Source: Collinsella sp. BA40 (GTDB lineage: Bacteria; Actinomycetota; Coriobacteriia; Coriobacteriales; Coriobacteriaceae). From it: a stretch of DNA of 64,000 bases. The notes under the pieces were generated by a model. The model saw only the letters and a list, made by a program, of their open reading frames with translations, ran no database searches and was not told where the DNA came from. Below, one piece after another: positions 40,625 to 52,949 of the stretch. Numbering within the stretch: position 1 is the first letter of the stretch; each line of letters starts with the position of its first letter. The position numbers were made by a program, and so were the translations under genes. Location of the stretch: assembly GCF_008014645.1 (NCBI RefSeq), contig NZ_VOWY01000010.1, forward strand, positions 1-64,000, given 5' to 3'.

Positions 40625-43600
40625 CTAGTGCTCCGATGTGCTGGAAGCATCATGAAAGCGCCCCGCCTCGTGCAAGAGGTTGGCCACTGATCGCTCGGCG
40701 GCTGCCAGCTTTTCCTCGTCCGCCTGCCAGTTCCAGTTTCCCTCGGCGATACCCGGCTTGTTCATGCGGGCGTCGTCTCCCAGGAGCATGGCGTCTTGCA
40801 GCTGCATCATGACCACGCGGGCGTTGCTGCCCATGCAGCGTGCGAGTATCTCTCCCGAGAGGTAGCGGGCGCTGGCGTCGTCGTTGTCGGAGCAGAAGGC
40901 GCGGCCCACGAAGCCCGCGAGGGTCGAGGTGTCGTGCGTCGAGGTGTACAGCACCTTGTCGTTGTGGGGGCTTATCTGGTGACGGATGTCGTAGTCTGCG
41001 AACTCCAGCACGTCCATGCCCGGGAAGCCGCAGCTCGCCACCAGCGCGCGAACGGCGGGCGTGAGCAGGCCCAGGTCCTCGGCGATGAACGGCAGGGGGC
41101 CGAACTCGCGATAGGCGCGCTCGAAGAACTCGATGCCGGGGCCGGGCAGCCAGCGTCCCTCGGCGCCGGAGCAGCCCGCGGGGATGCCGAAGTAGTTCTG
41201 GAAGCCCAGGAAGTGGTCGAGGCGCACGTAGTCGTAGAGCTTGAACGAACGGCGCAGGCGCGCCATCCACCATACGTAGCCGTCTTGCTTCATGCTCTCC
41301 CAGCGATAGGTCGGGTTGCCCCACACCTGGCCCGTTGCCGAGAACCTGTCCGGTGGAACGCCGGCGATCTCGTAGGGCTTGCCGTCCTTGCCAAGTGAGA
41401 ACATGCCCGGTTCCGACCAGGCATCGGCCGAATCATCCGACACATACATGGGGATATCGCCGATGACGAGGATGCCGCGCTCGTGAGCGTAATCGAGCAT
41501 CTCTCGCCACTCCTGGTCGAAGCGGAACTGCGCGTACGCGTGGAACTCCGCGGTTTCTGCAAAGCGCTCGTCGGACAACATGCCGATGGAGTAGCGCTGC
41601 TGTTCGGCGGGCCAGCAGTGGCGCGATGCGCCCTGGTGCGACTCCTTGAGCGTCATATAAGCGCAGTAGGAGTCGAGCCACTGCTCGTTTTCGCGCGCGA
41701 AACGAAGGTATTCAGGGCTGGTGAGGCCGCCTGCCTTCTTGAATGCGGCGAACGACTGGCGCAGCTCGCTATCGCTTTCGGCCAGCAGGTTGGTGTTGCC
41801 TGCGAACGCGGAGGGGCCCGCATAGGGGGAGCCATACGAATCGGTGGGGTTGACGGGCAGTACCTGCCAGTAGCGCATGCCCATGGCCGCGAGGTGGTCG
41901 ATGAAGCGCTTGGCCGGCTCGCCGAGCGTGCCGGCTTCTCCGCGCTTGTTGGGAATCGAGGTGATGTGGGCGATCACGCCGGCGCCGTGTTCGAGGGGCT
42001 TCTGCAGACGCGAACGCCTGTGGCCGTAGATGACCGAGGATCCCATGGGCCACAGCTTCAACTCGGCGCAGCCGTCGGCTTCGCGAACGAGGTCGTCGCC
42101 GTTCAACAGGTCCACGGCTGTATCGTTTTCGATGGGGACGCGTACGACGCGCGTGTTGGACAGGCTTCGGTTGATGAGGACGCTCGCGATCTGGCCGTCG
42201 GCGCTGCGGCGCTTGATACACAAGACGTCATCGTTTAAGGCGCTTGCTTGCAGCGTGCCATCGATGAGGAACGGCAGCGCGCGGCGCAGGCCCGATGCGT
42301 TGCGGATCATGGTGAGCATGTCGCGGTCATGGATGTCGGGGTCTTCGGGAAGCGTGCGGCGGTTGCCGGGGTCGGACAGGCCCTCCAGGCAGAACTCGTC
42401 GCCGTAATAGATCGAGGGAACGCCGGGCAGCGTCATCTGCAGCAACGTCGCCAGCCAGAAACGGCCTTTCGCACGGCCGATGGAGTTCTCGTCCAGGCGG
42501 AAGCGCCCGCGTTCGTATTCAGGGAGCTGCGATTCGTCCGGACCGTCGCCCAGGACCGAGGCGATGCGCGGCTTATCGTGGCTGCCGAGCAGGTTGAGCG
42601 CGCAGCGCAGGGCTTCGGGCGGATAGTTCTCGCGCAGGGTCTCGATATGCTCGGCAGCCTGGTAGGCCGTCTCGCCGCCCAGAAGGAAGCCGAGCACCAT
42701 GTCGCGGAAGGGGTAGTTCATGGCCGAATCGAGCTCGTCGCCCTGCAGATAGGCGCGCAGCTTACTGTAACTGATCTTATTCGAGGCGTCCTCCCAGACT
42801 TCGCCCAAGAGCAGGCCGTCGGGGCATTCTTCGAGCAGCGCTGTCTTGATGTTGCGGATGAGATCGTCGGTCAGCTCGTCTGCAACATCAAGACGCCAGC
42901 CCCGAGCGCCGGCGCGCAGCCATGTGCGAATCACGCCGTTTTCACCCAGTATGAGGTCTTGTACCAGCGGGCTTTCTTCGTTGAGCGACGGCATGTTGCC
43001 GATGCCCCACCAGGCGTCGTACGATCCGTCCTCGTGGAAATGGAAGGCGTCGTGCCAGGGCGAGTCCTCGTTCTCCCAGGCGCCCTCGGTTGGATAGTTG
43101 CCAAATCGGTTGAAGTATAGCGAATCGTCGCCGGTGTGGTTGAACACGCCGTCGAGGATGATGCTGATTCCGTGCTCGCGCGCATCGGCTGCTAGACGCT
43201 CGAAATCCTCTTTCGTGCCCAACATGGGGTCGATGGTGAGGTAGTCGCCCGTGTCGTAGCGATGGTTGCTGGCGGCCTTGAAGATTGGGTTGAGGTAGAT
43301 CGCCGTGATGCCCATCTCCTGGAGGCGCGGCAGGTCCTCGCGGATGCCCTCGAGCGAGCCGCCGTAGAAGTCCCAGGTGCGGATCGAGCCGTCGGAAGCT
43401 CGGTCGTAGACGGGCGGGGTGTTCCAGTCCCACACGATGCGCTTGCCAGGACCCTTGCGAGGCACGTCGACCTCGGCGGTAGCGCGCTCGCGCCAGGCGG
43501 CGTCACGGCGGTAGCGATCGGGAAAAATCTGATATACCATGCCTCGCTCGTACCAGGTGGGGCGGGTTGCACGGTGCTTATAGACGGTGATCTGGAACGA

Positions 43601-43939
43601 GGGCGCATCCGCATAGCCATATACCGTGCCCTCGCCGCCTGTAGCGCTCTCGGGTGCGCCCAGGTAGAGCCGGGTGCCGTCGGGCGCATCGATGATGAAG
43701 CGATACCATACCAGGACGGGATCGGGGCAGGGTAGGGACACCGTATAGCGGCCGCCGCCTCTGTGCTCGAGGGGGAGCAGGGTCTCGCCCTCGCCGTCGA
43801 TCCAGGTTCGCAGGGTGATGGACGTTCGCGAGGCATCGCAGTCGATTGCCTGGACGGCGAGCTCCACCGTGGTTCCGGCCACGACCGCGCCGTAGGGTGT
43901 GCGGCAGGTCGCAAGGCGGCTGTTGTGAATGAAGTTCAT
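40625..43939 (-). CDS. fused GH13 alpha-amylase/neopullulanase-like and GH77 4-alpha-glucanotransferase
   Basis: This 1104-residue protein joins two starch/glycogen enzymes. Residues 1-120 resemble the N-domain of neopullulanase-type enzymes. A GH13 barrel spans about 130-560, with catalytic residues visible in GWRLDVADE (Asp near 349), LLLGEVWED (Glu near 380) and LGSHDKPR (Asp near 456). After a beta domain, a GH77 (MalQ) module runs from about residue 645 (EHGAGVIAHITSIP) to the end, with YVRLDHFLG, FIAEDLGLLTP and TSTHDTSTLAG holding its three catalytic acids. Both halves appear active. The fusion would hydrolyse alpha-1,4 (perhaps alpha-1,6) links and recycle the oligosaccharides by transglycosylation. 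No signal peptide is present, so it acts on internal glycogen or imported maltodextrins. The ATG has AGGAGG ten bases upstream. Confidence 0.93.
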   Translation of the reverse strand: MNFIHNSRLATCRTPYGAVVAGTTVELAVQAIDCDASRTSITLRTWIDGEGETLLPLEHRGGGRYTVSLPCPDPVLVWYRFIIDAPDGTRLYLGAPESATGGEGTVYGYADAPSFQITVYKHRATRPTWYERGMVYQIFPDRYRRDAAWRERATAEVDVPRKGPGKRIVWDWNTPPVYDRASDGSIRTWDFYGGSLEGIREDLPRLQEMGITAIYLNPIFKAASNHRYDTGDYLTIDPMLGTKEDFERLAADAREHGISIILDGVFNHTGDDSLYFNRFGNYPTEGAWENEDSPWHDAFHFHEDGSYDAWWGIGNMPSLNEESPLVQDLILGENGVIRTWLRAGARGWRLDVADELTDDLIRNIKTALLEECPDGLLLGEVWEDASNKISYSKLRAYLQGDELDSAMNYPFRDMVLGFLLGGETAYQAAEHIETLRENYPPEALRCALNLLGSHDKPRIASVLGDGPDESQLPEYERGRFRLDENSIGRAKGRFWLATLLQMTLPGVPSIYYGDEFCLEGLSDPGNRRTLPEDPDIHDRDMLTMIRNASGLRRALPFLIDGTLQASALNDDVLCIKRRSADGQIASVLINRSLSNTRVVRVPIENDTAVDLLNGDDLVREADGCAELKLWPMGSSVIYGHRRSRLQKPLEHGAGVIAHITSIPNKRGEAGTLGEPAKRFIDHLAAMGMRYWQVLPVNPTDSYGSPYAGPSAFAGNTNLLAESDSELRQSFAAFKKAGGLTSPEYLRFARENEQWLDSYCAYMTLKESHQGASRHCWPAEQQRYSIGMLSDERFAETAEFHAYAQFRFDQEWREMLDYAHERGILVIGDIPMYVSDDSADAWSEPGMFSLGKDGKPYEIAGVPPDRFSATGQVWGNPTYRWESMKQDGYVWWMARLRRSFKLYDYVRLDHFLGFQNYFGIPAGCSGAEGRWLPGPGIEFFERAYREFGPLPFIAEDLGLLTPAVRALVASCGFPGMDVLEFADYDIRHQISPHNDKVLYTSTHDTSTLAGFVGRAFCSDNDDASARYLSGEILARCMGSNARVVMMQLQDAMLLGDDARMNKPGIAEGNWNWQADEEKLAAAERSVANLLHEAGRFHDASSTSEH

Positions 43940-44115: not shown

Positions 44116-45942
44116 CTAACGACGCTTCGCGGTCTTGCGTGCGGTGGTCTTGGGGACGGCAGGTTTCAGGTCGGGCTCGGCCTGCGCGTCAGCTGCATCG
44201 GCTTTCTTGGCAGTCGTGGTCTTGCGCGCGGTGGTGCGTTTCGCAGTGGTTTTGGCAGCGGTCTTGGTTTCATTTGCCGCTGCGGTATCAGCCGCTTCTG
44301 CGGTGGCGGCAGCCTTCGTGGCGCGCTTCGTGGTAGCGGAGCGCTTGGTTGCAGCCGTCTTGCGTGCAGCGGTCTTCTTGGCAGCCGGCTTCTTCACGGG
44401 TTTATCGGCCTGTGCAGCTTCATGTGCGGGGTCGACTGCGGGGTCGGGCTCGACAACGGGCTGTTCCACCCAATGCGGGACGTCGGGATGCAGCCAGTAG
44501 TACAGGTCCATGTACTTGCCGGCCGAGCGCTTCCAACTGAAGTCCTGCTCCATAGCCTGCGTGACCAGCTGGTCCCATGCGTCGCGGTTGTCCCAGAATA
44601 GGCGGGCGCCGCGGAATACGGCATCGCCCATCTCATCGCCGTTGAAGTTGGCAAACGAGAAGCCCGTTCCCTCGCCCGTGACGAAGTTATAGGGTATGAC
44701 GGTGTCTTTCAGGCCGCCCGTCTCACGGACGACGGGCAGGGTGCCGTAGCGCATGGCGATCATCTGCGACAGGCCGCAAGGCTCGAACAGCGATGGCATG
44801 AGGAAGAGGTCGGAGCCGGCGTACATGCGCTGAGACAGCGCTGGGTCGAACTGGATGCAGGCCGCCATCTGGCCGGGATACTTGGATGCAAAGTAGCGAA
44901 GCGCGTTTTCGTATTCCTGGTCGCCGGTTCCCAGAACCGCCACCTGTACTCCATTGGACAGGATGCGGTCGAGTGAGTACGTGACAAGATCCATGCCCTT
45001 CTGGCGCGTGAGCCGCGTGACCATGGTCATGAGCGGTTGGTCGGTTCGAACGGTAAGACCGAGCTCTTCCTGCAGTGCGCGCTTGCATACGGCTTTGCCG
45101 GTTCGGTCGGATACGGAGTAGTTCTGCGCGATGGCGGGGTCCGTTCCGGGGTTGAAATGATCTACGTCGATTCCGTTGACGATACCCTGCAGGCTTTCGC
45201 GCTTACGACGCAGCACGCCATCGAGGTTCTCGCCGTAGGCGGGCGTTTGGATTTCGCCGGCATACGTGGGGGAGACCGTGGTGATGGCATCGGTGTAGTT
45301 GAGCGCGCCCTGCATGTAGTTGACGGCATCGGGGCCGCAGGTCAGTTGGAATGCGGCGGCAGGGATATGTGCCATCCCGCAGATGTCTTCGAGCACCTTG
45401 GCGCTAAACTGGCCCTGGAACGCGATATTGTGGATGGAGAACACGGTCTTGATGTTCTCGTATAGCGGCAAGCCCTGATAGAACTCGCGGAGGAACACCG
45501 GAGCCAATGCGGTGTGCCAGTCGTTGCAGTGCAGGATGTCGGGTGCGAACCCGTCAGGCAGGTGCTGGATGCTTTCGCAGATGGCCTTGGAGAAAAACGC
45601 GAAGCGCTCGCCATCGTCGAAAAAGCCGTACGGGTAGTCGCGGCCGAAATAGCGCTGGTTATCGATGAACATATACGTGACGCCGTTGTGCACGAGACGC
45701 AGCAATCCGCAGTACTCGTTTCTCCAGCCAAGGCTCACGTAGAAGCTCGTGATGAATTCCATCTGGTCTTTGAACTTCTGCGGAATGGTGTTGTAAAGCG
45801 GCACCATGACGATCGTCTCGGCCCCAGCCTGGTTGAGGGCGGCGGGCAGAGAGCCTGCAACATCGCCCAAGCCGCCTGTCTTCACGAACGGCGCTGCTTC
45901 GGCGGAAGCGAACAGTATATGCATTTTCTTGGAAATGGTCAT
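44116..45942 (-). CDS. glgA: glycogen synthase (ADP-glucose type) with histone H1-like C-terminal tail
   Basis: This 608-residue GT5 glycosyltransferase extends alpha-1,4-glucan from ADP-glucose. The N-terminal FVKTGGLGDVAGSLP is the KxGGL ADP-glucose-binding motif; HCNDWHTAL, FSIHNIAFQG, VTRLTRQKG and FEPCGLSQMIAMRYGTLPVVR are the other hallmarks. The catalytic part ends near residue 490, the usual length of GlgA. Residues 514-608 form an added tail with, by my count, about 30 Ala, 20 Thr, 19 Lys and 8 Arg in 95 residues and very few acidic ones, rich in AAKK, KTAA and TTAKR units like histone H1 or HupB tails. GlgB in the same operon has a shorter basic tail. The tail is in frame and sits over no other gene. 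Confidence 0.95.
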   Translation of the reverse strand: MTISKKMHILFASAEAAPFVKTGGLGDVAGSLPAALNQAGAETIVMVPLYNTIPQKFKDQMEFITSFYVSLGWRNEYCGLLRLVHNGVTYMFIDNQRYFGRDYPYGFFDDGERFAFFSKAICESIQHLPDGFAPDILHCNDWHTALAPVFLREFYQGLPLYENIKTVFSIHNIAFQGQFSAKVLEDICGMAHIPAAAFQLTCGPDAVNYMQGALNYTDAITTVSPTYAGEIQTPAYGENLDGVLRRKRESLQGIVNGIDVDHFNPGTDPAIAQNYSVSDRTGKAVCKRALQEELGLTVRTDQPLMTMVTRLTRQKGMDLVTYSLDRILSNGVQVAVLGTGDQEYENALRYFASKYPGQMAACIQFDPALSQRMYAGSDLFLMPSLFEPCGLSQMIAMRYGTLPVVRETGGLKDTVIPYNFVTGEGTGFSFANFNGDEMGDAVFRGARLFWDNRDAWDQLVTQAMEQDFSWKRSAGKYMDLYYWLHPDVPHWVEQPVVEPDPAVDPAHEAAQADKPVKKPAAKKTAARKTAATKRSATTKRATKAAATAEAADTAAANETKTAAKTTAKRTTARKTTTAKKADAADAQAEPDLKPAVPKTTARKTAKRR

Positions 45943-46039: not shown

Positions 46040-47146
46040 CTAGCTCAGTGGGACCTTGGGAACGACGAGCGTGTCGTCGGGCGTGCCGCGCAGTTCGGTG
46101 TTGGCGGGAATGACGTTGTTCTTATCGATGATAGCGTTATCGACGCGTGCGCCGCGCTTGATCACGCAGGACTGCATGATGATGGCATTGCTGACGCTCG
46201 CACCGCTTTCGACGACGACGTCGCGCGACAAGATGGAGTTGCGCACGGTGCCCTGGATGTGGCAGCCGGCCGAGATGAAGGAGTTGCATGCGTTCGAGCC
46301 GGTTGCGTATTTTGCCGGAGCGACGTCGTGCGCCTTCGTCATGACGGGACGGTCGTGCGTGAAGAGCTGGTGCATGATGTCGGGGTTGAGCATCTCCATG
46401 GAGCGCTTGTAATACGTCTCTTCGTTGAACATCCCGACGGCGAGACCCTTGAATTCGTAGCTGCACACATCGATGCGGCCGAAGTCGTCCTGGATGGCCT
46501 CGAACAGATCGAGATAATCGGCGCTGGCATAGCTCTCGCAGATATCCAGCAAGACATCGCGGCTGATGACGAAGCAGTCGAGGAACTCGTTATCGCCGTA
46601 GGGGCAGCCGTGGTCGACGGCCTGGACTCGTCCGCAATCGCCGATGTTGAGGCGGGTGGCGTCGTCCACATCGCGGTCGGCGTGCGTGTAGATCATGGTG
46701 ATTCCGGCGCCGCTGCGCTCATGCGCGTCGATGACATCGGAGAGGTTCATATTGAAGACGATATTGGTTGCGCTCATGACGACATAGGGTTCGCTCGCAC
46801 GCTGGAACATCATCTTGTTGGCGATGATGTCGCGGAGCAGGAAGCGCAGGCCATGCTTTGCAGTGCCGTAGGCGCTTCCCTGGAGCAGGAACAAACCGCC
46901 CTTCTTGCGGTCAAGCTCCCATTCACGGCCGCTTCCGAGGTGGTCGACGAGCGAGCGGTAGTTGCCAGGAAGCACGACGCCTACGGTGCGGATACCTGCG
47001 TTCATCATGTTGGACAGCGGGAAGTCGATCAGGCGGTAGCGCCCCATGAAAGGACAGCTGGCCAGGGGACGGCTTTCAAGGAGCGCGCTCTTATCCTTGC
47101 TGGTGTAATTAGCGGTGATATATCCGATTGCCTTACGATTGACCAT
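46040..47146 (-). CDS. glgD: ADP-glucose pyrophosphorylase regulatory subunit GlgD
   Basis: This 368-residue protein is a GlgC relative of the GlgD type. It keeps the nucleotidyltransferase fold (MGRYRLIDFPLSNMMNAGI) and the C-terminal left-handed beta-helix. However, it lacks the glycine-rich GGxGxRL loop at the N-terminus, and where GlgC has [10 protein letters not shown] it reads MSATNIVFNM, so the catalytic aspartate is gone. In Gram-positive bacteria GlgD partners GlgC and changes its activity; the same is inferred here. Four bases separate it from glgC, and the ATG follows GGGGGA. Confidence 0.92.
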   Translation of the reverse strand: MVNRKAIGYITANYTSKDKSALLESRPLASCPFMGRYRLIDFPLSNMMNAGIRTVGVVLPGNYRSLVDHLGSGREWELDRKKGGLFLLQGSAYGTAKHGLRFLLRDIIANKMMFQRASEPYVVMSATNIVFNMNLSDVIDAHERSGAGITMIYTHADRDVDDATRLNIGDCGRVQAVDHGCPYGDNEFLDCFVISRDVLLDICESYASADYLDLFEAIQDDFGRIDVCSYEFKGLAVGMFNEETYYKRSMEMLNPDIMHQLFTHDRPVMTKAHDVAPAKYATGSNACNSFISAGCHIQGTVRNSILSRDVVVESGASVSNAIIMQSCVIKRGARVDNAIIDKNNVIPANTELRGTPDDTLVVPKVPLS

Positions 47147-47150
47147 CGGT

Positions 47151-48299
47151 TCATTCCCCCTTTCCGATGACGACGTCGTTTCCAACGACGGCCGTATCCT
47201 TCGTAGAGTCAACGCTGCCGAGCTTAACGCCTTCTTCCACGATGGCGTTCTCGCCCAGGATCGCGCGCACGACATGTGCGCCGTCCTTTACGATGGCACC
47301 GGGAAGCAGGACGGAGTCCTCGACGATGGCACGTTCGCCAACGACGCAGTCGGTGGAGAGGATCGAATGCTTAACGGAGCCGTAGATGCGGCAGCCGTTC
47401 GATACCAGGCAGTCGTCAAGGCGCCCGTCGGGTCCGATGAAGTGCGGGGGACGGGTGGAGTCGTTGCTCATTACCGGGAAGCTCTTGTCGAATAGGTCGA
47501 ACTCGGGATTTTCGCCCAGTAGGTCCATCGAGGTTTCATGGAAGCTGGAGATCGTGCCGACATCCTTCCAGAATCCATGAAACTCGTAGGTGTACAGGCG
47601 CTTGCCCTCGGCGAGGAGCTTCGGAATGATGTCCTTGCCGAAGTCATGGCTGGAGCGCTGGTCCAGGGCGTCGTCCTCGAGTGCCTGGACCAGGATATCG
47701 GTGCTGAAAATGTAGATGCCCATGGAAGCGAGGTTGGAATCGGGCTTTTCGGGCTTCTCGGTGAATTTCTCGATGCGGCCGTCATCGGGATTGGCCGTGA
47801 TGATGCCGAAGCGGCTGGCCTCCTCCCAGGGAACCGGCATTACGGACACCGTGAGGTCGGCGCCATGTTCGATGTGGCTCTCGAGCATCTTGCGGTAATC
47901 CATGCGGTACAGGTGGTCGCCGGAGAGAATCAGGACGTATGCCGGGTCATGACCCTTGATGTAGTCAAGGTTCTGAGTGATCGCATCGGCCGTGCCCGCA
48001 TACCAGGTGCCACCGTCCTGGGTGGCGTAGGGCGGCAGGATCGAAACGCCGGCACCATGCTCGTCCAGGTCCCATGCTCGTCCGGAGCCAACATACTCGT
48101 GGAGCTGGTAGGGACGGTACTGCGTGAGTACGCCCACCGTATCGATGCCCGAGTTCGCGCAGTTGGACAGCGAGAAGTCGATAATCCTGAACTTGCCGCC
48201 GAACGAGACGGCGGGTTTGGCGATTTTAGACGTGAGCGCCCCCAACCGGCTGCCCTGTCCTCCCGCGAGGAGCATCGCGATGCATTCTTTCTTGCTCAT
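47151..48299 (-). CDS. glgC: glucose-1-phosphate adenylyltransferase
   Basis: This 382-residue enzyme makes ADP-glucose from glucose 1-phosphate and ATP, the committed step of glycogen synthesis. The intact [15 protein letters not shown] loop, [26 protein letters not shown], the catalytic [10 protein letters not shown] and the FTEKPEKP motif show an active subunit. The C-terminal third is the beta-helix domain. It lies between glgP and glgD, four bases from the latter, so the two subunits should be made together. Confidence 0.96.
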
Positions 48300-48362: not shown

Positions 48363-50789
48363 CTAGGCGTGCCAGATCTCGTCGCGATATTCGCGAATGG
48401 TGCGATCGCTCGAGAACCAGCCCGACATGGCGGTGTTGTGCAGCGCGCAGCGGTTCCAAGCCTGCGCATCGGTGTAGGTAGAGGTGAGCTCCTCCCATGC
48501 CTGAACGTAGGAGTGGAAGTCCTTCAAAACGAGGTCATAGTCGTTATTGGACATGATCTCAGTATGAATGCTTTCAAAGTTGCCGGAGAGCTTGGCAAAC
48601 GTATCATCGGTGAGCTCGTCCATAACACGGCCCAAGCGGTCGCGGTCCGCGTTCACGATATCCCATGCGAAGTAGCTACCGCTTGCACGCAGCTGTTCGA
48701 CCTCGGGCGTGGTCAGACCGAAGATCTTCTCGTTCTCCTCGCCGGCGAGCTGGGCGATTTCGATGTTGGCGCCGTCCATGGTGCCAAGCGTGATCGCGCC
48801 GTTCATCATAAGCTTCATGTTGGACGTACCCGAGGCCTCTTTACCGGCGGTCGAGATCTGCTCTGAGATCTCGGCTGCGGGATAGATGAGCTGCGCGTTG
48901 GAAACGCGGAAATTCGGGATGAAGCATATCTTGATGAGGTCGTTGACGCGTGGGTCGTTGTTCACGACCTCGGCCACCGAGTTGATGAGTCGTATGACCT
49001 CCTTGGCGAAGGTGTAGCTTGAAGCCGCCTTGCCGGAGAAGATGAACGTCGTGGGCTGAACATGGAACGAGCTGTCCGAGATGAGGCGGTTGTAAACATC
49101 CATGACCTTCATGATGTTCATGACCTGGCGCTTGTATGCATGGAAGCGCTTGACCTGAACGTCGAAGACCGAGTCGGGATCGATTACGAGGCCGCACTCG
49201 CGGCGGACGTATTCGGCGAGACGAATCTTGTTCTGGCGCTTGGAATGGGCGACGCGCTTGAGGAACGAGGGATCGCTCTCGAAGTCGACGAGCTTTTTGA
49301 GTTCCTCGGCGTTATCGAGCCACCCATCGCCGATTGCCTCGGTGATGAGCTTTGCATAGGACGGGTTGGCTTCGGCGAGGAAGCGTCGGGGCGTGATGCC
49401 GTTGGTCTTGTTGTTGAACTTCTCCGGCGTGAGCGCATAGAAATCGTTGAGGACGGAGCGCTCAAGGATGTCGGTGTGGATCTTGGCGACGCCGTTTACG
49501 GAGTGGCTGCAGATGACGGAGAGATTGGCCATGCGGACCTCTCCGTCCCATAGGACCGAGGTCTTGCGCAGGCGTTCCTGCCATCCGTCCTGGGTGGTGT
49601 CGAATCCGTCGCGCCAACGGCGGTTGATCTCGTCGATGATGTCGTATACGCGGGGGAGCAGCTTCTTGAACGTCGCGATGGGCCACTTCTCGAGCGCTTC
49701 GGGCAAGATGGTGTGGTTGGTGTAGGAAATGGTCTTGGTGACGATATCCCATGCTTCGTCCCAGGTGAGGCGCTCCTCATCCATGAGGATGCGCATGAGC
49801 TCCGGGCCGCACATAGCGGGATGGGTGTCGTTGGTGTGGATGGCAACGTATTCGGGGAGCTTTGCCCAATCGTTGCCATGCTCGCGACGGAAGACGTCGA
49901 GGGCGGTCTTAAGGCCTGCGGCTACGAACAGGTATTCCTGCTTAAGGCGCAGGAGGCGACCATGTTCGCCGGCGTCGTTGGGGTAGAGGATGGCCGAGAT
50001 CGCTTCAGCATCGGCGCGGCTGGCATCGGCATTTGCGTACTCGCCGCGGTTGAAGGCGTCGAGGTCGAAGTGCTCGTCGATGGGCTCGGCGCTCCAAACA
50101 CGAAGCTTGTTGACGGTCTCGCCGCCAAAGCCCACCACGGGAATGTCGTAGGGCAAGGCCAGGACATCCTGCGTGTCGACCACATCGTAGAAGGTGCGGT
50201 CGCCCTCGGTATGCGAGACGACGTGGCCGCCGAAGCCGATGCGCACGGCTTTATCGGGGCGGCGAACCTCCCACGGATAGCCCTTGGAGAGCCACTCATC
50301 GGCTACTTCGACCTGGCGTCCGTTCACGATCTCCTGCTTAAACAGTCCGTAGCGATAGCGCATGCCGTTACCGTATCCAGCGATGCCCTCGTGGGCCATG
50401 GAGTCCAGGAAGCAGGCTGCCAGGCGGCCGAGGCCGCCGTTGCCCAGCGCTGCATCGGGCTCGAGGTCGCAAAGCTTGTCGAGGTCGCATCCCATCTCCG
50501 AGAGGGCATCGGCCACCATGTCGCGAATACCGAAGTTGATGAGGTAGTTGTCGAGGAGGCGACCGATGAGGAACTCGATCGAGAAGTAGTAGACGCGCTT
50601 CTTTCCATCCTTGGCAAAGCGCTTGTCGGTTTCGGCCGAAACAGCGCGCGCCTTCGAGGCGATAAGGCCGGCGAGCGCATTGAAGCGGTCGATATCGCTG
50701 GTGATCTCGAAGCTCTTGCCAGAGAGCTCCTTGACCGCCTCGCGATACTCCTCGATGAACGTTTCCTTGTTTTCGAAAATCTTATTCAT
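48363..50789 (-). CDS. glgP: glycogen/alpha-glucan phosphorylase
   Basis: This 808-residue PLP enzyme releases glucose 1-phosphate from glycogen. It shows the N-terminal YYFSIEFLIGRLL, GNGGLGRLAACFLDS (the GNGGLGRLAA substrate loop) and the PLP-lysine motif KEASGTSNMKLMMNGAITLG. Length and motif order match GlgP/MalP. Its place inside the synthesis operon, after glgB, means that breakdown and synthesis genes share one transcript, so flux is probably set by enzyme regulation rather than transcription. Confidence 0.96.
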   Translation of the reverse strand: MNKIFENKETFIEEYREAVKELSGKSFEITSDIDRFNALAGLIASKARAVSAETDKRFAKDGKKRVYYFSIEFLIGRLLDNYLINFGIRDMVADALSEMGCDLDKLCDLEPDAALGNGGLGRLAACFLDSMAHEGIAGYGNGMRYRYGLFKQEIVNGRQVEVADEWLSKGYPWEVRRPDKAVRIGFGGHVVSHTEGDRTFYDVVDTQDVLALPYDIPVVGFGGETVNKLRVWSAEPIDEHFDLDAFNRGEYANADASRADAEAISAILYPNDAGEHGRLLRLKQEYLFVAAGLKTALDVFRREHGNDWAKLPEYVAIHTNDTHPAMCGPELMRILMDEERLTWDEAWDIVTKTISYTNHTILPEALEKWPIATFKKLLPRVYDIIDEINRRWRDGFDTTQDGWQERLRKTSVLWDGEVRMANLSVICSHSVNGVAKIHTDILERSVLNDFYALTPEKFNNKTNGITPRRFLAEANPSYAKLITEAIGDGWLDNAEELKKLVDFESDPSFLKRVAHSKRQNKIRLAEYVRRECGLVIDPDSVFDVQVKRFHAYKRQVMNIMKVMDVYNRLISDSSFHVQPTTFIFSGKAASSYTFAKEVIRLINSVAEVVNNDPRVNDLIKICFIPNFRVSNAQLIYPAAEISEQISTAGKEASGTSNMKLMMNGAITLGTMDGANIEIAQLAGEENEKIFGLTTPEVEQLRASGSYFAWDIVNADRDRLGRVMDELTDDTFAKLSGNFESIHTEIMSNNDYDLVLKDFHSYVQAWEELTSTYTDAQAWNRCALHNTAMSGWFSSDRTIREYRDEIWHA

Positions 50790-50864: not shown

Positions 50865-52949
50865 CTACTTCTTCGTACGGGTACGTTTGGGTGCCGCCTT
50901 TTTGGGCGCAGGAGCTTTCTTGGTATGAACGGCTTTCGCCTTTGTCGGAGAGACGTAAGAGGAGGCGCGCGAACGCTTATAGACCAGGCCGCCCATGCCG
51001 GGAAGCGAGATCTCGATGGAGTCGTCCCGGCCGTTCCAAGCTTCGGGCCTACTGGATGCCATCTCGACTACGGGATAGCCGCTGCCACCGAAAGCGGGAT
51101 CGTCGGTATTGAACACGAGCTTCCAGTCGCCTTCGCGCGGAACGCCCATGCGGAACGTCTCGTAGGACGCGGGATCGAAGTTGATGATGATCACCAGGTC
51201 GTCGGCCGGTTTCTTGCCGCGGCGCACGAAGGAAATGATGGATTGCTTGTTATTGTCCGCGTCGATCCACTCGAAGCCCTGCGCATCGTATGCGAAGTGC
51301 CACAGGCCCGCCTCTTTGAGATAGAGGTGGTTGAGGGCTTCGATGAATGCCTGCTGGTGCGCATGCGTCTCGAAATCGCGGGCGAGGAACCACTGAAGCG
51401 ACTCGTAATAACGCCATTCGATGAACATGCCAAGCTCGTTGCCCATGAAGTTGAGCTTGGCGCCCGGATGCATCATCTGGTAAAACGCGAGGTTGCGAAG
51501 GCCGGCGAACTGCCGCCACGGATCTCCCGGCATACGTCCGATGAGCGAGCACTTGCCGTTGACGACTTCGTCGTGGCTAAGGGGCAAGACGAAGTTCTCG
51601 TTGAAGGCGTACATCATCGAGAACGTGAGCAGTCGATGGTTGCCCGGGCGCCAAGGGAAATCGGTCTGCATGTAGTGCAGCGTGTCGTTCATCCATCCCA
51701 TGTCCCATTTGTAGTGAAAGCCCAGGCCGCCGTCGGCTGGTGGGTAGGTTACGAGCGGCCAGGCGGTAGACTCCTCGGCGATCATCATGACGTCGGGATG
51801 CGTTTCGCCAACGGCCTCGTTGACGGTGCGAATAAATGCCGAAGCATCGAGGTCTTCCTCGGTGCCGAATTTGTTGAACTTTTTATCGGCCGGGTTGTCT
51901 ACGCCGAAATTGAGGTAGAGCATGCTGGAAACGCCGTCCATGCGGATGCCGTCGGCATGGAACATGTCGATCCAGAACAGCGCGTTGGAGAGTAGGAAGC
52001 TCACGACCTCGGGGCGACCGAAATCGAATTTATGCGTACCCCAGTTGGGATGGATCTCGCGCTCATAGAGCATGGATCCATTGAAGGTCGCAAGGCCTTG
52101 CGCATCCGCGCAAAAACCGCCGGGGACCCAGTCGAGAATCACGCCTATGCCCGCCTTGTGGCATGCATCGACGAAGTGCATGAATTGCTGCGGGGTGCCG
52201 TAGCGGGCGGTTGCCGCGTAATAGCCTGTTCCCTGGTAGCCCCAGGACCCGTCGAAGGGATGCTCCATAACGGGCATGACCTCGATATGGGTGTATCCCA
52301 TATTCTTGACATAGGCCACGAGCTCGACCGAGAGGTCGTCGTACGAGTAGAACGTACCGCGCTGTGCCGGGAAAGGGTCGCCCGGGCCGGGATAGGTGCC
52401 ATCCTCACGCGGCTCGCCTTGGGGTTCGTCTCCATGGCGTTTCCAGGAGCCCAGATGGACCTCGTAGATGTTGAGCGGGGTGTGCATGTGGTCGCGCTTG
52501 GAGCGCTTGCGCAGCCACGCAGCATCTTTCCAGGCATAACCGCTGAGGTCCCACAGCCGTGATGCGGTGCCGGGGGCCACTTCGGAATAAAATGCATAGG
52601 GGTCCGCTTTATAGAGCAGTTCTCCCTCGATGGTCTCGATAACGTATTTATAGAGGTCGCCTTGGTTGAGGCCGGGGATAAACCCATGCCACAAGCCGCT
52701 ATCCATGATGCGTTCGAGCGGAGTTGCCGTCGCGTTCCAGCCGTTGAAATCGCCTACGACGTGCACGCTTGCAACTTCGGGGGCCCATACGCAGAACGAC
52801 CAGCCCTGGATTCCATCTTTGATAGCGGGGTGCGCACCCATCTTCTCCCAGCTTCGTTGCCAGGAACCCTCCGAGAAGAGATGAAGATCGTCTTCGGTGA
52901 TCATGAGGCAGGGCTGCTCGGTTGAGTTGGCAGCGTTCTTCGTGCTCAA
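50865..52949 (-). CDS. glgB: 1,4-alpha-glucan branching enzyme with basic C-terminal tail
   Basis: This 694-residue GH13 enzyme creates alpha-1,6 branches in glycogen. Residues about 25-135 form a CBM48-like domain (GWSFCVWAPEVASVHVVGDFNGWN). The barrel has the catalytic motifs GIRMDGVSSML (Asp), MMIAEESTAWP (Glu) and LPLSHDEVVNGKCS (Asp). The enzyme proper ends near residue 657; the last 37 residues hold 10 Lys and 4 Arg and no acidic residue (APAPKKAAPKRTRTKK at the end), echoing the tail on GlgA. It is the first gene of the glycogen operon, with a divergent promoter region of about 400 bases upstream. Confidence 0.95.
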   Translation of the reverse strand: MSTKNAANSTEQPCLMITEDDLHLFSEGSWQRSWEKMGAHPAIKDGIQGWSFCVWAPEVASVHVVGDFNGWNATATPLERIMDSGLWHGFIPGLNQGDLYKYVIETIEGELLYKADPYAFYSEVAPGTASRLWDLSGYAWKDAAWLRKRSKRDHMHTPLNIYEVHLGSWKRHGDEPQGEPREDGTYPGPGDPFPAQRGTFYSYDDLSVELVAYVKNMGYTHIEVMPVMEHPFDGSWGYQGTGYYAATARYGTPQQFMHFVDACHKAGIGVILDWVPGGFCADAQGLATFNGSMLYEREIHPNWGTHKFDFGRPEVVSFLLSNALFWIDMFHADGIRMDGVSSMLYLNFGVDNPADKKFNKFGTEEDLDASAFIRTVNEAVGETHPDVMMIAEESTAWPLVTYPPADGGLGFHYKWDMGWMNDTLHYMQTDFPWRPGNHRLLTFSMMYAFNENFVLPLSHDEVVNGKCSLIGRMPGDPWRQFAGLRNLAFYQMMHPGAKLNFMGNELGMFIEWRYYESLQWFLARDFETHAHQQAFIEALNHLYLKEAGLWHFAYDAQGFEWIDADNNKQSIISFVRRGKKPADDLVIIINFDPASYETFRMGVPREGDWKLVFNTDDPAFGGSGYPVVEMASSRPEAWNGRDDSIEISLPGMGGLVYKRSRASSYVSPTKAKAVHTKKAPAPKKAAPKRTRTKK

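Follow-up and report, generated by a model that had tools for sequence, protein, structure and literature searches.

A basic, lysine-rich C-terminal tail on the glycogen branching enzyme GlgB is a feature fixed in Coriobacteriales. These tails exist across the whole lineage, are predicted to be unstructured and are under selection for lysine. Our preferred reading, to which we give a probability of roughly 0.4, is that the GlgB tail may act as a disordered polycationic tether to a cellular polyanion, and that a tail on the glycogen synthase GlgA would have been added later in Coriobacteriaceae.

The tailed enzymes of the window

The window, i.e. the whole stretch of 64,000 nucleotides analysed here, encodes GlgB and GlgA together with other glycogen enzymes (Table 1). 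GlgB contains CBM48, a GH13 catalytic domain and an alpha-amylase C domain, and is thus like ordinary bacterial GlgB of GH13 in its full CBM48, catalytic and C-terminal beta domains and in its NCBIfam equivalog match. The scores are above the curated cut-offs (NF008967, 815 bits with cut-off 577; TIGR01515, 736 with cut-off 464). However, ordinary GlgBs end at most about 20 residues past the core, unlike the tailed protein of the window. The stop codon occupies 50865-50867, and the minus strand of 50868-50978 is translated into KRSRASSYVSPTKAKAVHTKKAPAPKKAAPKRTRTKK, the last 37 residues of the protein. The first-pass annotation had counted 10 Lys, 4 Arg and no acidic residue there and had placed this stretch beyond the usual end of GlgB. 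Direct translation agrees exactly with the count (10 K, 4 R, 0 D/E), and all the markers of the domain end fall earlier: Pfam Alpha-amylase_C ends at residue 659 of 694, the NCBIfam GlgB models end at residues 656-661, the alignment of solved branching enzymes reaches residue 659 at most, and the last predicted beta-strand of the AlphaFold2 model covers residues 653-661. In the same model the pLDDT is below 50 from residue 671 on, with no confident structure past 670. Ending with the C-terminal beta domain is a usual, not strictly defining, trait of GlgB, and here 36 extra residues follow that domain; the extension is an addition to the GlgB family and gives no ground to exclude the protein from it.

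Tail lengths were measured from the end of a fixed core, which gives 36 residues for GlgB of the window and 117 residues for GlgA, the latter with a net charge of +14. The NCBIfam models end at residue 482-484 of GlgA, and 124 residues run past them; residues 502-608 have pLDDT below 50 and are unstructured in the AlphaFold2 model.

Table 1. Glycogen genes and C-terminal tails on the window, with the basis of each assignment
Feature	Position	Strand	Basis
glgB, 1,4-alpha-glucan branching enzyme, 694 aa	50865..52949	-	NCBIfam NF008967; Pfam CBM_48, Alpha-amylase, Alpha-amylase_C
GlgB basic disordered (predicted) C-terminal tail, 36 aa, net +13	50868..50975	-	translation; Pfam/NCBIfam domain ends; AlphaFold2 pLDDT
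glgP, glycogen phosphorylase, without tail	48363..50789	-	reading frame; name by sequence similarity
glgC, ADP-glucose pyrophosphorylase, without tail	47151..48299	-	name by sequence similarity
glgD-like pyrophosphorylase subunit, without tail	46040..47155	-	start set at the internal ATG; name by sequence similarity
glgA, ADP-glucose glycogen synthase, 608 aa	44116..45942	-	NCBIfam NF001898, 664 bits (cut-off 603)
GlgA C-terminal tail, 117 aa, acidic/Pro-rich first, then Lys/Ala/Thr-rich, last letters PKTTARKTAKRR	44119..44469	-	translation; AlphaFold2
GH13 amylase-type + GH77 4-alpha-glucanotransferase fusion, 1104 aa, directly downstream of glgA	40625-43939	-	

Among the enzymes examined, the tails mark GlgA and GlgB, the two polymer-building enzymes, with one metagenome-assembled genome (MAG) as the exception. 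The GH13-GH77 fusion adjoining glgA in the window has no tail at its end, GlgP of the relatives has no extension of at least 12 aa (one genome excepted), and no tail is found on GlgC or GlgD of the compared genomes except in MAG L057. A tailing of all glycogen enzymes is therefore ruled out. L057 is an uncultured Coriobacteriaceae MAG which has basic ends also on GlgC (35 aa) and GlgP (14 aa), and its GlgC extension contains an SSYKK motif that resembles the start of GlgB tails.

Distribution of the tails among relatives

The survey of GlgB and GlgA covered 60 Coriobacteriaceae genomes (the family of Collinsella, Enorma and others, as the named loci show), 40 genomes of a second Coriobacteriales family and 80 named GTDB loci. 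The second family corresponds to the Olsenella/Atopobium side and is called Atopobiaceae-like here. It turned out that all the Coriobacteriales genomes on the tree (102 of 102) have a basic GlgB extension, mostly of 20-270 aa (full range 14-273 aa); only two genomes have tails shorter than 20 aa, which are 14 and 17 aa long with net charges of +4 and +5. A tail present only in the strain of the window, a case which had been considered at the start, is ruled out by this survey of relatives. The median length is 80 aa in Coriobacteriaceae and 70.5 aa in the Atopobiaceae-like family, and the 36 aa of the window are among the shorter ones. Related loci outside the order gave 32 GlgBs, in which a median of 9 and at most 40 residues follow the core. 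Generally, the tails are basic along the whole length (23% K, 25% A, 6% R and less than 3% D/E), and their start is conserved in Coriobacteriaceae, where an R.G.SSY.PPK-type motif is found in 54 of 60 genomes.

The tail of GlgA is less widely spread. It reaches at least 60 aa in 55 of 59 Coriobacteriaceae genomes and is absent in all four genomes of one genus, and in the Atopobiaceae-like family all 40 genomes have a tailed GlgB but none of the 39 GlgAs is tailed. Since GlgB tails occur without GlgA tails in this family and in one Coriobacteriaceae genus, the GlgB tail cannot depend on the GlgA tail. We placed the tails on a maximum-likelihood tree of the cores of GlgA and GlgB joined end to end (102 rows, including one identical pair), on which 57 genomes have both tails, 45 only the GlgB tail and 0 only the GlgA tail. 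The GlgA tail needs at the fewest two changes on this tree and always arose where GlgB was already tailed, which is consistent with one gain inside Coriobacteriaceae and one in a pair of Eggerthellaceae-labelled MAGs.

GlgA tails have also arisen elsewhere: two Firmicutes-related MAGs (L079 and L084) carry one of 86 aa or 198 aa, a low-complexity stretch in which Pro and charged residues abound, while their GlgB tail is very short or absent. In L079, outside the order, the GlgA tail is of mixed charge and the GlgB end has 7 residues; with such a GlgA tail beside no real GlgB tail, the nesting of GlgA tails within GlgB-tailed lineages is not universal.

The GlgA tails of Coriobacteriaceae have a recurring layout. 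The first quarter is net-acidic in 41 of 55 tails and often Pro-rich, the further part is basic, and a Lys/Arg cluster closes 48 of 55, commonly as a recognisable motif such as SVSAARKTTTRKKR or TSVRKATATRKRR. At the extreme C-terminus (44119-44160 in the window, and relatives L142-L199) such a basic motif, e.g. SVSAARKTTTRKKR, stands amid variable low-complexity sequence. This hints at a specific role of the last 15 residues. In L183 (G046:C2) the final part of the GlgA tail is an unrelated sequence, RHTRCLGSAACTGWGQN.., which suggests a frameshift or an assembly error.

One explanation of such a pair of tails is a scaffold for glycogen synthesis, in which the tails would join GlgA and GlgB, e.g. 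through pairing of the acidic GlgA linker with the basic GlgB tail or through granule co-condensation. The first-pass annotation had proposed a shared scaffold or granule-targeting principle from the similar composition of the two tails, and its premise stands in part: independent basic tails are found on both chain-building enzymes of one operon in the 55 Coriobacteriaceae genomes, while the absence of the GlgA tail from the Atopobiaceae-like family speaks against a single paired system. The net-acidic start of most GlgA tails next to GlgB tails basic throughout, and the lack of tails on the remaining operon enzymes, would also suit a scaffold, yet the GlgB tail occurs without the GlgA tail in 45 of 102 genomes, in L079 a GlgA tail of mixed charge goes with a GlgB that has hardly any tail, and the two tails do not vary together. 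Among the 55 tailed Coriobacteriaceae genomes, the lengths of the GlgA and GlgB tails have a raw Spearman correlation of 0.34 and phylogenetic contrasts of r 0.19 (p 0.16), and for net charges the contrasts give r -0.14 (p 0.33). Tight covariation is ruled out, as neither length nor charge correlates after kinship correction, and the correlation across related genomes that the annotation had predicted does not go beyond shared family membership. Its other claim, that the GlgB tail is no chance extension of one gene, is borne out by the presence of the tail throughout the sampled Coriobacteriales and by the selection for lysine described below. We regard the scaffold as unlikely; it could be an extra layer in Coriobacteriaceae, and it leaves the GlgB tails of the Atopobiaceae-like family unexplained.

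Selection on the tails and their genomic background

Selection was studied in 23 genomes of the C. aerofaciens group. The dN/dS is 0.33 for the GlgB tail and 0.22 for the GlgA tail, values which are biased by low-complexity alignment and are to be read as below 1, and 0.03-0.04 for the cores. The residues of the tails differ much in how fast they change: per nonsynonymous site there are 0.020 differences for Lys, 0.10 for Ala and 0.28 for Thr in the GlgB tail, and 0.019, 0.098 and 0.12 respectively in the GlgA tail; two ways of aligning the sequences agree on this. As a control for mutation bias, Thr/Ala exchanges were set beside Lys/Glu and Lys/Arg exchanges, all of which arise by an A<->G mutation. 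In the GlgB tail, Thr sites are paired with Ala in 1065 of 2924 cases (36%) and Lys sites with Glu or Arg in 214 of 10,587 (2%), and in the GlgA tail the counts are 3305 of 19,184 and 511 of 20,111; genome pairs overlap, so these counts are not independent and the ratios are descriptive. Because the lysines are strongly conserved amid fast-evolving sequence, selection maintains the positive charge of the tails.

The conservation of lysine bears on the idea of an entropic bristle, in which a charged disordered tail would keep the enzyme soluble and unburied in the growing glycogen particle with no specific partner. Such a bristle would account for tails that are unstructured, highly charged, variable in length and confined to polymer-building enzymes; however, either sign of charge would serve solubility, yet it is lysine that is conserved and throughout the order the charge is positive, and GlgP has no tail. 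We consider this explanation quite improbable. Nearly neutral drift, by which repeat slippage would build functionless Lys/Ala tails in GC-rich lineages, suits the Ala/Lys/Thr/Pro-rich composition, the frequent length change and the rapid turnover outside the lysines, but it is largely contradicted and very improbable given a dN/dS well below 1, the specific conservation of lysine and the rarity of such tails in their own genome beside their presence in 102 of 102 relatives.

To describe this rarity, we took a background sample of 753 kb (39%) of the window's genome, in which a simple caller based on codon usage gave 500 ORFs, 490 of them 80 aa or longer; this caller is crude (76% coding, some spurious ORFs) and the background counts are approximate. 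Segments of 37 residues with at least 14 K/R and no D/E number 8 of 173,271 in this sample, all in GlgB and TopA, so the GlgB tail stands well beyond what chance would give. For the 490 genes, the final 36 residues carry a mean net charge of -0.8 (s.d. 3.8), and GlgB with +13 is the joint highest with ribosomal protein L2. A genome-wide fashion for basic tails is ruled out for the sampled 39% of the genome. The remaining proteins of the sample with a low-complexity or basic end are a PSP1-domain protein, ribosomal L31, a PRC-barrel protein, a TRIC-like membrane protein and GlgA. Besides, in the regions around the operon in the Atopobiaceae-like family, all 24 proteins with a net charge of at least +10 in the last 36 residues are GlgB, a result from operon-biased regions that has little weight. 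The PSP1-domain protein of the window's genome (L223:391-2229) has a long Arg-rich, mixed-charge C-terminal tail with RRRRR clusters.

A possible tether to a polyanion

Protein tails of low complexity and rich in lysine are a familiar kind of feature. Lysine-repeat tails keep actinobacterial TopA bound to DNA and make it more processive (PMC7398561), and lysine-rich low-complexity regions of prokaryotes are enriched in DNA-binding proteins (PMC6821194). The GlgB tails have the traits of lysine-repeat tails, being C-terminal, low-complexity, Lys-rich with Ala, Pro and Thr, poor in acidic residues and intrinsically disordered by prediction (pLDDT below 50, no secondary structure). As in actinobacterial TopA, a disordered Lys/Ala/Pro-rich tail follows a conserved catalytic core, and TopA of the window's genome has one. 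The difference lies in the ligand: DNA is both ligand and substrate of TopA, whereas the substrate of GlgB is glycogen, which is neutral and uncharged, so the ligand of the GlgB tail must be something else and the partner of a tail should in general be something other than glycogen, unless the tail needs no partner at all. In amino-acid composition the tails are also like the lysine-rich tails of histone-H1-like and HU proteins (HC2, HupB/HupS type), but the tails of GlgA and GlgB are on metabolic enzymes. No Pfam HC2 match at E 0.001 was found for GlgA and GlgB of the window or for the proteins of seven relatives, and TopA of the sampled genome has a weak match to this histone-like family, below the curated cut-off.

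The tether to a polyanion is favoured over the scaffold of GlgA and GlgB and over the solubility bristle. The GlgB tail would hold electrostatically on to a polyanion, i.e. nucleic acid or polyphosphate, and chain building would thereby be gathered or kept at a single site, in the way that TopA is held on DNA. GlgA of Coriobacteriaceae would later have gained its own tail, with an acidic linker, a basic region and a short conserved basic end, which may tether the synthase in a similar manner. We infer both the polyanion binding and the co-concentration of GlgA and GlgB. For this reading counts that comparable tails in the sampled genome belong mainly to proteins that work with nucleic acids or in the ribosome (TopA, the PSP1-domain protein, ribosomal L2 and L31) and that the window's genome encodes the polyphosphate kinase PPK1, which makes polyphosphate a possible partner; PPK2 was sought in this genome with no match. 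Against it count the neutrality of glycogen, the lack of a tail on GlgP, a polymer-bound phosphorylase which also acts on glycogen, the widely variable tail length, and the basic ends on the PRC-barrel and TRIC-like membrane proteins. The presence of PPK as a discriminator is uninformative, with PPK1 found in every Coriobacteriaceae genome checked and in most other relatives. A more specific form of the tether, in which the polycationic tail would anchor GlgB of Coriobacteriales to a polyanion-based compartment (the nucleoid or a polyphosphate body) and GlgA of Coriobacteriaceae would have joined later via its tail with acidic linker and conserved basic end, is tentative and on balance doubtful.

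In open-licence papers we found nothing on tails of glycogen enzymes in Collinsella or Coriobacteriia or on charged tails of branching enzymes, and nothing on point for the co-localisation of polyphosphate and glycogen; in the accessible part of a 2024 review of prokaryotic alpha-glucan enzymes, the words "disordered" and "lysine-rich" do not occur. Such tails on glycogen enzymes may perhaps be new.

How bacterial glycogen granules are organised without glycogenin-like or scaffold proteins is, to our knowledge, poorly known. The two related families, both with tailed GlgB and differing in the GlgA tail, offer a natural experiment on whether the site and manner of glycogen building are governed by charge tethers. 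The compartment form of the tether, if true, would mean scaffold-free co-location of two consecutive storage enzymes in bacteria. Lysine-repeat tails, known from DNA-binding proteins, would also extend to enzymes of central carbon storage.
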